Origin: Nitrospira sp. CR1.2 | GTDB lineage: Bacteria; Nitrospirota; Nitrospiria; Nitrospirales; Nitrospiraceae | Length of the DNA stretch: 64,000 nucleotides | Direction: 5' to 3' | NCBI GenBank assembly: GCA_014055495.1 | Contig: WIAG01000003.1 | Coordinates: 1 to 64,000, forward strand | In this document: one piece after another, positions 47,185-55,566 of the stretch | Numbering within the stretch: position 1 is the stretch's first letter | Layout of the letters: each line of letters opens with the position of its first letter | The notes under the pieces: model-generated | The model's input: the letters and a program-made list of their open reading frames with translations, nothing else | What the model was told of the DNA's origin: nothing | Database searches by the model: none | Translations under genes and position numbers: made by a program

Positions 47185-47397
47185 TTACGATGCGTTCCAA
47201 TAGCGGATGGTGTAATAGGCGCTCCACACGAGCAACCCTACCACCACCAGCTTCAACCACACAGGAATGCGTCCGTCCCGCTCTTCAATCCCTGCATGCC
47301 GGTACACATACGGTGGCTCGGCCTCGGAGTCGTCCCGCGGTTTCGACTGGTGCTCGACACGCAAATCTTCTTTCCTCTCATTCTTTCGTTCCCTCAT
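47185..47397 (-). CDS. Small membrane anchor resembling the CcoP N-terminus
   Basis: A 70-residue protein: a charged N-terminal half, then YVYRHAGIEERDGRIPVWLK followed by one transmembrane helix (VVVGLLVWSAYYTIRYW). The H..GI.E.d..lP.WW-like block before a single helix is what the membrane anchor of CcoP looks like. Its ATG overlaps the stop of the giant oxidase gene (ATGA), so they are co-translated. The dihaem part of CcoP is fused to the upstream protein, so this looks like the detached anchor. A CcoQ-like subunit is the alternative. Confidence 0.75.
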   Translation of the reverse strand: MRERKNERKEDLRVEHQSKPRDDSEAEPPYVYRHAGIEERDGRIPVWLKLVVVGLLVWSAYYTIRYWNAS

Positions 47398-50288
47398 GGT
47401 CGCCGCCTTCCGTTGGCGTTCCCGTCGGTCAACCGAGCCGTGCGGTGCGAATCGGATGGAGTCTGAATGATGGTCTTCTCCAAATCACCCCGCCTGGCGG
47501 CCGGCGAAAGCGCTGCCCACATGCGGGACCTTGCCTGCTCCAGATCTCCCTCTTTCAGACCCACCGCCACAAGCTCCTGCTCGTGAGCCGCCACGCGCAA
47601 CGATTGAACATAGTGGACGATGTCCCAGATCTCCTCCGGTTTCAGCTGTTCTCCGAACACAGGCATGGGAGTTCCTCCGATGCCTGTCGTCACCACTCTG
47701 AACAGATGTGCTCCATCATGACCAAGTTTCACGCCCCCCGAGAGACCGGCCGCCAGTGTGAAATTGGCCGGCTTGAGCTGCTGTCCCCAAATATCCTTGA
47801 TCACCGGAGCCATCGGGCCATTTCCCTCGCCCCCGGCTCCGTGACAGAGCATGCAGTTTGCCATGAATAGAGTCTTACCTTGCGCCAGAGACATGTCCGT
47901 GACCGCCGGTTCAGGCGCAATCGTGATCGACGGCGGGACAGTCTCCGTGACCCATCGATCGGAAAAGGTCTTGATATACTGCACCACCGCCCGCCGTTCA
48001 TGCTCAGAGATTTCCTGCCAGGCCGGCATCGCGGTGCCCCAGAGCCCGTGCGTCACCGTGCTATAGAGATCGACGTCGGTCGGCAGCGAATCCTTCCCCT
48101 GCGTCGATCTGAATTTGAAGACCCCCTTCGTAAAATCGCGCGGCCGCGGTTCCATAAACTGAGCAGCGGGCCCACCCCCGTCTCCGTTGACTCCATGGCA
48201 ACCGACGCAACGACGCTCGTACACGGTTTGACCCAGCACGAGCAAATCCTCCTGCGATTGCGGACTTGCATTGAGTACCTGGCCGCCTGTGACCTGAGTC
48301 GCGGCGAACCCTTCCCGCCAATCCCCGATCCCGGTCCCCAGTTTCTGCAGATAGGCAATCAGAGCCGTGCCGTCTTCGTTCAATTGCGGTGTGTTACCGT
48401 CTTTCGCAAGTTCGTACAGCCAAGGAAAGGCCGGCATGATGGAATCGGGCACGACCTCCCTCGGATTCCAATAGTGGGCGGCGTGCCAATCGTCGCCGTA
48501 CTTTCGTCCGACTCTGGTCAGGTCCGGGCCGATGCGACGGGTACTAAACAGATGCGGCCGATCATGCGCATATTCACCGGCCTGGGATACAGGTCCCCAG
48601 CGAAACGATTCGCCGGTGACGGGACGCACGTATTGCGAGTGGCAGTACCAACATCCTTCGCGGATATACACGTGCCTGCCCTTCAGCTCTTGCGGTGTAT
48701 AGTCCGTCACCTGAATCGCCATCTGCGTGACCGTGTCCTGAACTGTGGCCGTTCGAGTTTCGGCCATCAACCAGGGAGTCACCCCCTGTACCCCAACGGC
48801 AAGAAAGAAAAAGCCGAAGCCGGCGATCAGTAGAACTGTGGAAGGACTTTCGATCCAGCTTCCCGCTGCGACGACTTGGACCGGCGTATCGATCGGCCGA
48901 GTGGCCGCGTCGCCTTCTTGCGCCAACAGTTCGCCCTCCTGCGCCGTTTTGTAGAAATTGATCACCATCAGCAGCAACGCGACGTCCATGGCCACGCCGC
49001 CTAATGTGCGTGCCACCCACCAAGGTTTCATCTCTTTGACCGTGTCCACGAAGTTCGCGCCAAATTCCAGCATCGATCCTTGGACGAATCCTTGCGCCGA
49101 CAAGCCGACAGCCATGACGGTAAATCCGGCGACGGTCAACCACAGATGCCAACTCGCCAGTCTGTCGCTCCACAAGCGTCGGCCGGTGACCCTGGGCCAG
49201 ACATAATAGGCGGAGCCGACCGCCCAGACCACGAAGGTGCCGAACACCGTGAGATGAGAATGGGCGATCACAAAATCATTGAAGTGGGTGAGTTCCTGAA
49301 CTCGACGCAGCGCCTCGACCGAGCCTTGAAAACACCCGATCAAGTAATAGACCGCGCCCATCATCAGAAACTTGGCGGCATAATTGTCGCCGCCGCCCCC
49401 GCCCGCGACGGCGCCCCAGCGCCCGAACATCGTACCGAAGAAATTCACCACGACCGTCCAGACCGGAATGATGAGCAGCATACTGGTCACGATCGAGACC
49501 GTCTGGGTCCAGTGGGGAATCGGGCTGTATAGATAATGATGCGTGCCGACGAACGGATAAAAGAACGCCAGCCCCCAGAATCCCAACAGCGAAAGCTTGT
49601 GGCTATACAGCGGGCTCCTGGCGCTCAGCGGAAGAAAATAATAAATCAGGGCCAGCCCGGCTGGAGTGATCCAGAGACCGACAATATAGTGAATATACAG
49701 GCCATGCATCGCCGCGCTGTTCACGCCCGCAATGTCGTCCGCATAGGTCAACAGTACATTGCCAAGGATCAGGTTCATGATCGTCCAGATGAGCGCGGCG
49801 GTCGTGTACCACATGGCGACGTAGAAGCGCCGCTCCGTCCGCCGGAAGACGGTTCCCAGGACCTGCACGGCAATCAGGCCGAGGATCAGAAACCGCAGAA
49901 GATTGAACGGCCACTCGAACTCCCCTGCCTCCAATCCCATGTTGAGACCAAACAGAAACGATGCGCTGCCGAGCACGAGAAATGCGTTCCACGCCCAGAG
50001 CAGCCACCATCCCCACGCCTCTTTATACATGCGCACGCCGCACAGACGGGGAACGATGTAGTACAGCAGTCCTAAGAAAACGGTCGAGAAGGATCCGAAG
50101 ATGACGCCGTTGACATGCATCGGCCGCAAGCGGCCGAACGTCAGCCAGGATACGCCGTCGAGAAATTCCGGATTATGAAACTTGATCGAGACCACCACCC
50201 CGACGATGGGGAAAAAAGTCAGCCAGATCAGCGCCCACCACAACCAGGCCTTGATTAAGGGACGGTTGATCAGGTCTTGGTCGTTCAT
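47394..50288 (-). CDS. ccoNOP: Fused cbb3-type oxidase CcoN-CcoO-CcoP(dihaem)
   Basis: A 964-residue haem-copper oxidase. Residues 1-480 are CcoN, with 12 or so helices and haem/copper His such as His58 (MHVNG), His200 (YIHYIV), His250-251 (GTHHYLY) and His343/345 (AHSHLT). A Gly-rich insertion lies near 294-300. Residues about 485-660 are CcoO, with a TM helix, haem c at CWYCH (546-550) and Met618 (SIMPAF). Residues 680-900 are two CcoP-like cytochrome c domains, CVGCH (694-698)/Met754 and CMLCH (812-816)/Met875. GGAGG precedes ATG 50288. It reduces O2 to water at high affinity. Confidence 0.92.
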   Translation of the reverse strand: MNDQDLINRPLIKAWLWWALIWLTFFPIVGVVVSIKFHNPEFLDGVSWLTFGRLRPMHVNGVIFGSFSTVFLGLLYYIVPRLCGVRMYKEAWGWWLLWAWNAFLVLGSASFLFGLNMGLEAGEFEWPFNLLRFLILGLIAVQVLGTVFRRTERRFYVAMWYTTAALIWTIMNLILGNVLLTYADDIAGVNSAAMHGLYIHYIVGLWITPAGLALIYYFLPLSARSPLYSHKLSLLGFWGLAFFYPFVGTHHYLYSPIPHWTQTVSIVTSMLLIIPVWTVVVNFFGTMFGRWGAVAGGGGGDNYAAKFLMMGAVYYLIGCFQGSVEALRRVQELTHFNDFVIAHSHLTVFGTFVVWAVGSAYYVWPRVTGRRLWSDRLASWHLWLTVAGFTVMAVGLSAQGFVQGSMLEFGANFVDTVKEMKPWWVARTLGGVAMDVALLLMVINFYKTAQEGELLAQEGDAATRPIDTPVQVVAAGSWIESPSTVLLIAGFGFFFLAVGVQGVTPWLMAETRTATVQDTVTQMAIQVTDYTPQELKGRHVYIREGCWYCHSQYVRPVTGESFRWGPVSQAGEYAHDRPHLFSTRRIGPDLTRVGRKYGDDWHAAHYWNPREVVPDSIMPAFPWLYELAKDGNTPQLNEDGTALIAYLQKLGTGIGDWREGFAATQVTGGQVLNASPQSQEDLLVLGQTVYERRCVGCHGVNGDGGGPAAQFMEPRPRDFTKGVFKFRSTQGKDSLPTDVDLYSTVTHGLWGTAMPAWQEISEHERRAVVQYIKTFSDRWVTETVPPSITIAPEPAVTDMSLAQGKTLFMANCMLCHGAGGEGNGPMAPVIKDIWGQQLKPANFTLAAGLSGGVKLGHDGAHLFRVVTTGIGGTPMPVFGEQLKPEEIWDIVHYVQSLRVAAHEQELVAVGLKEGDLEQARSRMWAALSPAARRGDLEKTIIQTPSDSHRTARLTDGNANGRRRP

Positions 50289-55047: not shown

Positions 55048-55506
55048 TCAGGACTTACAGAAGGTCCGCAGATACGCGATAGTCTTCCATGCTTCCTCCT
55101 CGGTCACCACCATCGGGGTTAACGCCATCATTCCGGTTCCTTGAATCCCGTTCTTCATGACCCAGAAGAGCTCGCCGTCGGTCTTCTTGGCGTGGAAATC
55201 GCAATTGGCGAAATTGCGCGGACCTGGATCCAACATCGCGCCGGCCACCCCGTCTCCCTTGCCAGCCTTGCCGTGGCAGTTGAAGCAGGTCCCCTTGCCC
55301 TCGTAGAGCGCTTTGCCCTCTTCGAGCATCTTCGCCGGGGCCTGCCTCGAATCTTTAAACAACGGGGTCGATAGCTTCTTCGCGCCCTCCATTTGATCCG
55401 CCGGCACGCGAGGTCTGAGCGGATCTTTTTCCGGCGCGGCGGAGGCCACTCCTCCGATGAGCAACACGGCGATGATCATCATTGCGGCAAATGGCGTCAG
55501 TCTCAT
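55048..55506 (-). CDS. Exported class I cytochrome c
   Basis: A 152-residue monohaem cytochrome c. Signal peptide to about residue 24 (GGVASAAPE), haem-binding CFNCH at Cys74-Cys77-His78, and a Met-rich block GTGMMAL near 125-131 for the distal ligand. ATG 55506 follows AAAGGGG; a longer frame to 55557 is less supported. It may donate electrons to the cbb3 oxidase encoded nearby; that is inferred from proximity. Confidence 0.9.
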   Translation of the reverse strand: MRLTPFAAMMIIAVLLIGGVASAAPEKDPLRPRVPADQMEGAKKLSTPLFKDSRQAPAKMLEEGKALYEGKGTCFNCHGKAGKGDGVAGAMLDPGPRNFANCDFHAKKTDGELFWVMKNGIQGTGMMALTPMVVTEEEAWKTIAYLRTFCKS

Positions 55507-55566
55507 ACGCGCCCCTTTCATTTCGCTGCCATGAACATCATGGAAGCTATCCCACATGCACGGTCG

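Follow-up and report, generated by a model that had tools for sequence, protein, structure and literature searches.

The window (64,000 nucleotides of contig WIAG01000003.1 from Nitrospira sp. CR1.2) contains two overlapping genes for a cbb3-type oxidase. The larger gene is a single, intact open reading frame, in which the Pfam domains COX1 (residues 12-432) and FixO (479-631) and cytochrome c domains (residues ~680-900) lie in the same frame; the single N-O-dihaem polypeptide of 964 residues described in the initial annotation was thus recovered at its coordinates. The smaller gene starts inside the stop codon of the fusion, which would fit translational coupling. The following features were located, all on the reverse strand:

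47394..50288 (-): CcoN-CcoO-dihaem cytochrome c fusion, 964 aa, cbb3-type oxidase (ORF, Pfam, homologues)
48924..50288 (-): CcoN domain, residues 1-455, 12 TM helices (Pfam COX1, 3mk7_A alignment, model helices, invariant columns)
49686..49706 (-): HGLYIHY motif, residues 195-201, corresponding to H202/G203/Y205/Y208 in P. stutzeri numbering (3mk7_A alignment)
49389..49403 (-): Gly-rich loop, residues 296-300, cytoplasmic, between helices 8 and 9 (alignments, model)
48369..48866 (-): CcoO domain, residues 475-640, with one TM helix (482-507) and one haem c, invariant Met618 (Pfam, conservation, model)
48639..48653 (-): CcoO haem c motif CWYCH, residues 546-550 (motif scan)
47556..48269 (-): C-terminal dihaem cytochrome c module, assigned to the Kustc0457 type and not to CcoP (6h5l_B sequence and fold match)
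48195..48209 (-): haem c motif 2, CVGCH, residues 694-698, with invariant Met754 (motif, conservation)
47841..47855 (-): haem c motif 3, CMLCH, residues 812-816, with invariant Met875 (motif, conservation)
47394..47397 (-): ATGA, 4-bp overlap of the fusion stop and the small-ORF start, ccATGAgg (sequence)
47185..47397 (-): 70-aa single-TM FixP_N-type anchor, a stand-alone CcoP N-terminal domain (Pfam, genome search, profile comparison)
47200..47292 (-): FixP_N-like block GIEERDGRIPVW...YYTIRY, residues 36-66, with Glu39 six residues before the conserved Pro (profile alignment, position counts)

The FixO/CcoO monohaem subunit was recognized by PF02433 with 159.7 bits (cut-off 29.6), and the NCBIfam models for bifunctional CcoN/CcoO (NF011053, PRK14485) and bifunctional CcoO/cytochrome c (NF011054, PRK14486) gave 427.6 and 200.2 bits, which are under their cut-offs of 1080 and 447, respectively. 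Three CxxCH motifs start at residues 546, 694, and 812, each followed by a Met (618, 754, and 875) that is invariant in the homologue alignment. A full-length AlphaFold model based on 16 homologues was poor (pLDDT 58) and usable for the helix count and domain matches only. It contains 12 TM helices in CcoN and one in CcoO; with these 13 helices, the C-terminus of CcoN and the N-terminus of CcoO would both be cytoplasmic, so that their joining appears compatible with the topology. The Gly-rich insertion near residue 296 is real, taking the form of a short, variable GGxxxD insertion in the cytoplasmic loop that is absent from unfused rhizobial relatives, but it is modest and common to the aligned fused homologues. 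Scans for promoters and terminators at the locus gave matches at chance level.

Identity of the dihaem module

The dihaem domain had originally been likened to the periplasmic part of CcoP, a comparison that did not withstand closer analysis. In sequence searches, the best relative of solved structure was 6h5l_B (E 5e-43), which belongs to the Kustc0457/Kustc0458 reducing HAO-like complex of Kuenenia, versus E 4e-6 for the CcoP chain 3mk7_C. The module is 36-44% identical to free, NxrC-linked, and Kuenenia dihaem proteins versus ~24% to CcoP, with mean identities of ~39% to free Nitrospira dihaem cytochromes and 36-38% to dihaem-EB_dh proteins and 6h5l_B. A model of the module (pLDDT 93), built from an alignment that left out the rhizobial rows, could be superposed on both domains of 6h5l_B (1.5 A rmsd over 215 residues, TM 0.84, Z 28.2), whereas on CcoP chains one cytochrome domain only was matched (89 residues for 3mk7_C, Z 11.8). 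Against TIGR00782 the fusion scored 61.6 bits, under the cut-off of 180. Judged by sequence and modelled fold, the dihaem tail is a Kustc0457-type module and not the periplasmic part of CcoP.

In CcoP, a FixP_N anchor is joined to haem domains in one protein; here the anchor is the separate 70-aa protein, and the fused enzyme is without CcoP in the strict sense. The earlier view of a rearranged cbb3 oxidase with an N-O-P order and a split piece holds for the cbb3 character, the N-O-dihaem order, and the separate anchor, but not for the 'P', as the dihaem part is not that of CcoP. In the dihaem tree, CcoP was set apart with 100/100 support; a joint clade of this dihaem module and CcoP was not rejected (AU p 0.415), and the two may thus share remote common descent. 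When the single c domain of type A CcoO was compared by Blast with CcoP on the one hand and dihaem domains on the other, neither came out clearly ahead.

Two known systems offer the closest parallels. Kustc0457, which is 36-37% identical, has the same fold and domain arrangement, but it is a separate dihaem protein that pairs with a reducing HAO-like protein in a different enzyme complex. The EB_dh-linked dihaem proteins fit the description of the alternative NxrC type alt_NxrC_2 (PMC6606698); their homologous module (~36-37% identical) is joined to an ethylbenzene-dehydrogenase-type haem b domain, whereas here it is joined to an oxidase.

The small anchor protein and its relatives

Residues 36-66 of the small protein align without gaps to FixP_N (PF14715; E 3.5e-5), with a score of 23.8 bits that is just under the cut-off of 24.9. 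FixP_N was matched in 13 of 14 small homologues (best E 7.6e-7), and fused-type small proteins from genomes G277, G261, and G030 exceeded the cut-off (28.9, 25.9, and 25.2 bits). In a profile comparison, the small protein matched the CcoP N-terminus with a probability of 84% (gapless, E 7.5e-6), whereas CcoQ reached 12% and two other TM segments 0.2%. According to the gapless profile alignment and position counts, a GI.E....(I/V/L)P motif precedes the one helix with the same spacing as in CcoP. Of 24 small proteins, 18 have the Glu that stands six residues ahead of the conserved Pro, as do all eight CcoP proteins compared; it is absent from three rhizobial, two unfused Nitrospirota, and one fused-type sequence. 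The small ORF is the only FixP_N match in its own genome, and FixQ (PF05545) matched neither the small protein, nor its homologues, nor anything else in that genome.

On this sequence evidence, the 70-aa product belongs with FixP_N, the anchor of CcoP; a CcoQ identity was considered and rejected. The initial annotation, which had taken the co-encoded protein for a CcoP-anchor homologue and named CcoQ or an unrelated family as competing identities, was right in this respect. A CcoQ-, CcoM-, or CcoH-like stabilizer, resembling FixP_N merely through a single helix and an amphipathic start, would account for a short single-helix protein that lies 3' of an oxidase as CcoQ does and whose own Pfam score falls just under the cut-off; it is nevertheless an improbable identity, given the absence of a FixQ match, the profile values, the shared motif spacing, and the many stand-alone relatives over the FixP_N cut-off.

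Locus counts were based on an even sample of 395 Nitrospirota genomes, which contains 12 uninterrupted fused loci and one broken copy. The small gene adjoins the fusion in all 13, directly on its 3' side in every locus with sequence there, and the 13 small-protein matches with E <1e-15 in this sample all lie beside fused loci. CcoN identity falls in steps, from 60-100% in the fused type to 52-55% in the unfused type and 37% and below in canonical-like CcoN. At locus L087 (G210:C9:89500-102500), the fused oxidase is broken into four frames, possibly as a pseudogene or through sequencing errors, and the small anchor gene is intact.

Stand-alone anchors also occur without the fusion. On rhizobial megaplasmids of S. 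meliloti, Phyllobacterium, and R. gallicum (L044-L046), unfused relatives with ~50% identity are arranged as CcoN, a CcoO-dihaem protein, and a small anchor annotated as hypothetical, and two Nitrospirota loci (L090, L091) have the same layout. The pSymA-type operon of S. meliloti (CP140933.1, L044) resembles the present locus over N, O, and dihaem and in its downstream anchor; it differs in that CcoN is a separate gene and in its additional TauE/SafE and P-type ATPase genes. The rhizobial operon contains another conserved single-helix protein of ~40 aa (L044:8525-8647, L045:7612-7734) with no Pfam match. In other Nitrospirota loci (L093-L100), a canonical-like CcoN and a CcoO with one extra haem c are usually accompanied by a stand-alone FixP_N protein (61-83 aa), and several of these small proteins are over the Pfam cut-off. 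In Nitrospirota, 53 of 83 FixP_N matches fall in frames of at most 104 aa, and the stand-alone anchor is the commoner form in the phylum.

Contrary to what had been proposed, the anchor was not detached by the fusion, because it is also separate where CcoN is a gene of its own, both in rhizobia and in Nitrospirota; comparison of cbb3 operons across the phylum confirmed the split anchor but not its release by the fusion. An origin by rearrangement, in which an ancestral CcoP was split so that its dihaem part ended up on CcoO and its anchor became free, is likewise unlikely. The FixP_N likeness of the anchor and the unrejected joint clade (AU p 0.415) would agree with such an event, but the dihaem module is closer to free, NxrC-linked, and Kuenenia proteins than to CcoP, its two-domain arrangement fits 6h5l_B, whereas CcoP chains match over one domain only, and a separate anchor is already seen in relatives whose CcoN is unfused and in most matches of the phylum.

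The CcoN+CcoO tree divides canonical and one-haem types from fused and unfused dihaem types with 100/100 support, its root being placed by midpoint only. Free anchors are found on both sides, so an ancestral free anchor is a live alternative that depends on this uncertain root. Tentatively, the FixP_N anchor could be an ancient, independent, and indispensable cbb3 subunit, from which CcoP arose later when haem domains were joined to it; the various lineages would have attached zero, one, or two haem c domains, or transferred unrelated ones to CcoO or CcoNO, and would always have kept the anchor as the completion of the CcoN core. A literature search found no article on a stand-alone FixP_N subunit and none on a role of the anchor in the proton channel. 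In work on the Vibrio cholerae enzyme, the CcoP helices are said to be enough for assembly, and an acidic residue of CcoP reportedly lies near the entrance of the single proton channel, a picture with which the GIxE motif of the small anchor would agree.

Oxidase core, occurrence, and proposed mechanism

The His ligands of haem b, haem b3, and CuB (H58, H200, H250, H251, H343, and H345, of which H200/H250/H251 are those of CuB) align to 3mk7_A and are invariant in the homologues. Position Y244 aligns in sequence with the cross-link tyrosine Tyr251 of P. stutzeri and is also invariant, and Glu323 of 3mk7_A is replaced by Gln (Q321) in the alignment. The H/G/Y/Y pattern near CuB was called unprecedented, for Nitrospina gracilis and some Sinorhizobium, in PMC3578206. 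In its core characters, the fused enzyme is a cbb3 (C-family) haem-copper oxidase, for which O2 reduction and proton pumping are predicted. Profile searches of its own genome gave no match for CcoQ or CcoS and none over the curated cut-off for FixH or CcoG, so copper insertion probably proceeds via other factors. These absences (CcoS, CcoG, and CcoQ), together with the unusual CuB-side residues H195, G196, and Y201 and with Q321, might suggest that the enzyme serves mainly in nitric oxide reduction or in O2/NO detoxification and not as a respiratory O2 reductase. Such a function is very unlikely, as the enzyme retains the six His ligands and the cross-link tyrosine and, according to PMC8115632, the cbb3 oxidase of Nitrospira marina, which is highly similar to that of N. 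gracilis, rose 3.6-fold in abundance at low O2. Elsewhere in the same genome, FixO was partially matched a second time (L116, G000:C98:15974-16132; 37 bits, over the cut-off), in a 465-aa frame near another dihaem match.

Approximately 20 of the genomes examined carry the fused gene, and its full-length homologues (59-96% identical) come from Nitrospira, other Nitrospirales, Nitrospinaceae/Nitrospina in the Nitrospinota, and one Gallionellaceae MAG. Although the source genome is a draft of 167 contigs, an error of assembly or sequencing, including the frameshift that had been raised as a possible explanation, can be practically discounted and was rejected, because the same uninterrupted frame recurs in many independent genomes, single-contig ones included, and the fusion has already been published. 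The MAG (L035, CAINCU010000016.1) is betaproteobacterial and encodes both the fused oxidase (59% identical) and the small anchor, pointing to lateral transfer or misbinning. Two loci (L085 and L086, in G143 and G308) have fused frames of ~1073-1094 aa, with ~130 extra, possibly translated residues upstream of CcoN in open frame.

In N. gracilis, three fused cbb3 subunits were described as a 954-aa protein (Lucker et al. 2013, PMC3578206), a description restated in PMC10839748, where other Nitrospinia with a cbb3 oxidase are also listed, and fused cbb3 genes were reported for Ca. Nitrospira alkalitolerans in 2020 (PMC7784846). These enzymes share with the present one the N-O-dihaem order in a single gene, ~13 TM helices, and the H202/G203/Y205/Y208 motif; a Nitrospina relative (L036) is 65% identical. 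The published accounts label the C-terminus as subunit III (CcoP) (PMC3578206; PMC7784846), whereas a Kustc0457-like dihaem module and a conserved anchor are found here; in their available portions, neither the small anchor gene nor the dihaem origin is mentioned (PMC3578206; PMC10839748; PMC7784846; PMC8115632). The fusion itself is thus already known; what is new is the small anchor, together with the assignment of the dihaem module.

Based on the observed domain make-up, ligands, conservation, linkage, anchor homology, and dihaem fold, the locus most likely encodes a divergent C-family (cbb3-type) oxygen reductase with electron input in cis and an obligate small subunit. The first of its two overlapping genes encodes CcoN (12 helices, haem b, and haem b3-CuB), CcoO (one helix and one haem c), and, where CcoP would contribute its haem domain, a Kustc0457-type dihaem module; the second encodes the CcoP membrane anchor, which would be a small subunit in its own right. 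Electrons, derived from nitrite oxidation by analogy with published models, would enter at the tethered dihaem and pass through the CcoO haem c and haem b to haem b3-CuB, where O2 would be reduced. The small anchor may insert N-in beside CcoN at the usual place of the CcoP helix, stabilize the complex, and hold its acidic cytoplasmic GIxE motif in position, possibly for the proton path. Canonical CcoNOQP cbb3 (PDB 3mk7) shares with the present enzyme the fold and ligands of CcoN, a CcoO, three haems c, and a FixP_N anchor; here, in contrast, CcoN (~27-30% identical) is fused to CcoO, CcoP is represented by a free anchor with its haem part replaced, and there is no CcoQ.

cbb3 oxidases are thought to allow nitrite oxidizers to respire at very low O2. 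The published N+O+P reading of the fused enzyme needs correction, since its electron-input module comes from another dihaem family. Members of this family are also used in NXR-linked and anammox proteins, and this suggests a route by which electrons derived from nitrite could arrive at oxygen. The small subunit, which had been overlooked, is apparently the part of CcoP that the oxidase cannot lose; as it isolates the anchor, a structural or proton-entry role could be tested apart from the haems, for example in the tractable rhizobial version.

In addition, a monohaem cytochrome c of 169 aa, whose N-terminus resembles a signal sequence, is encoded a few kb from the oxidase (55048-55557, reverse strand) and is a possible electron donor. 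Elsewhere in the window, positions 10480-39506 contain successive catabolic genes of a kind unusual in autotrophic nitrite oxidizers, whose translations, judged by eye, include acyl-CoA dehydrogenases, branched-chain/2-oxo acid dehydrogenase subunits, methylmalonyl-CoA mutase, and tyrosine-degradation-like and methylcitrate-cycle-like proteins.
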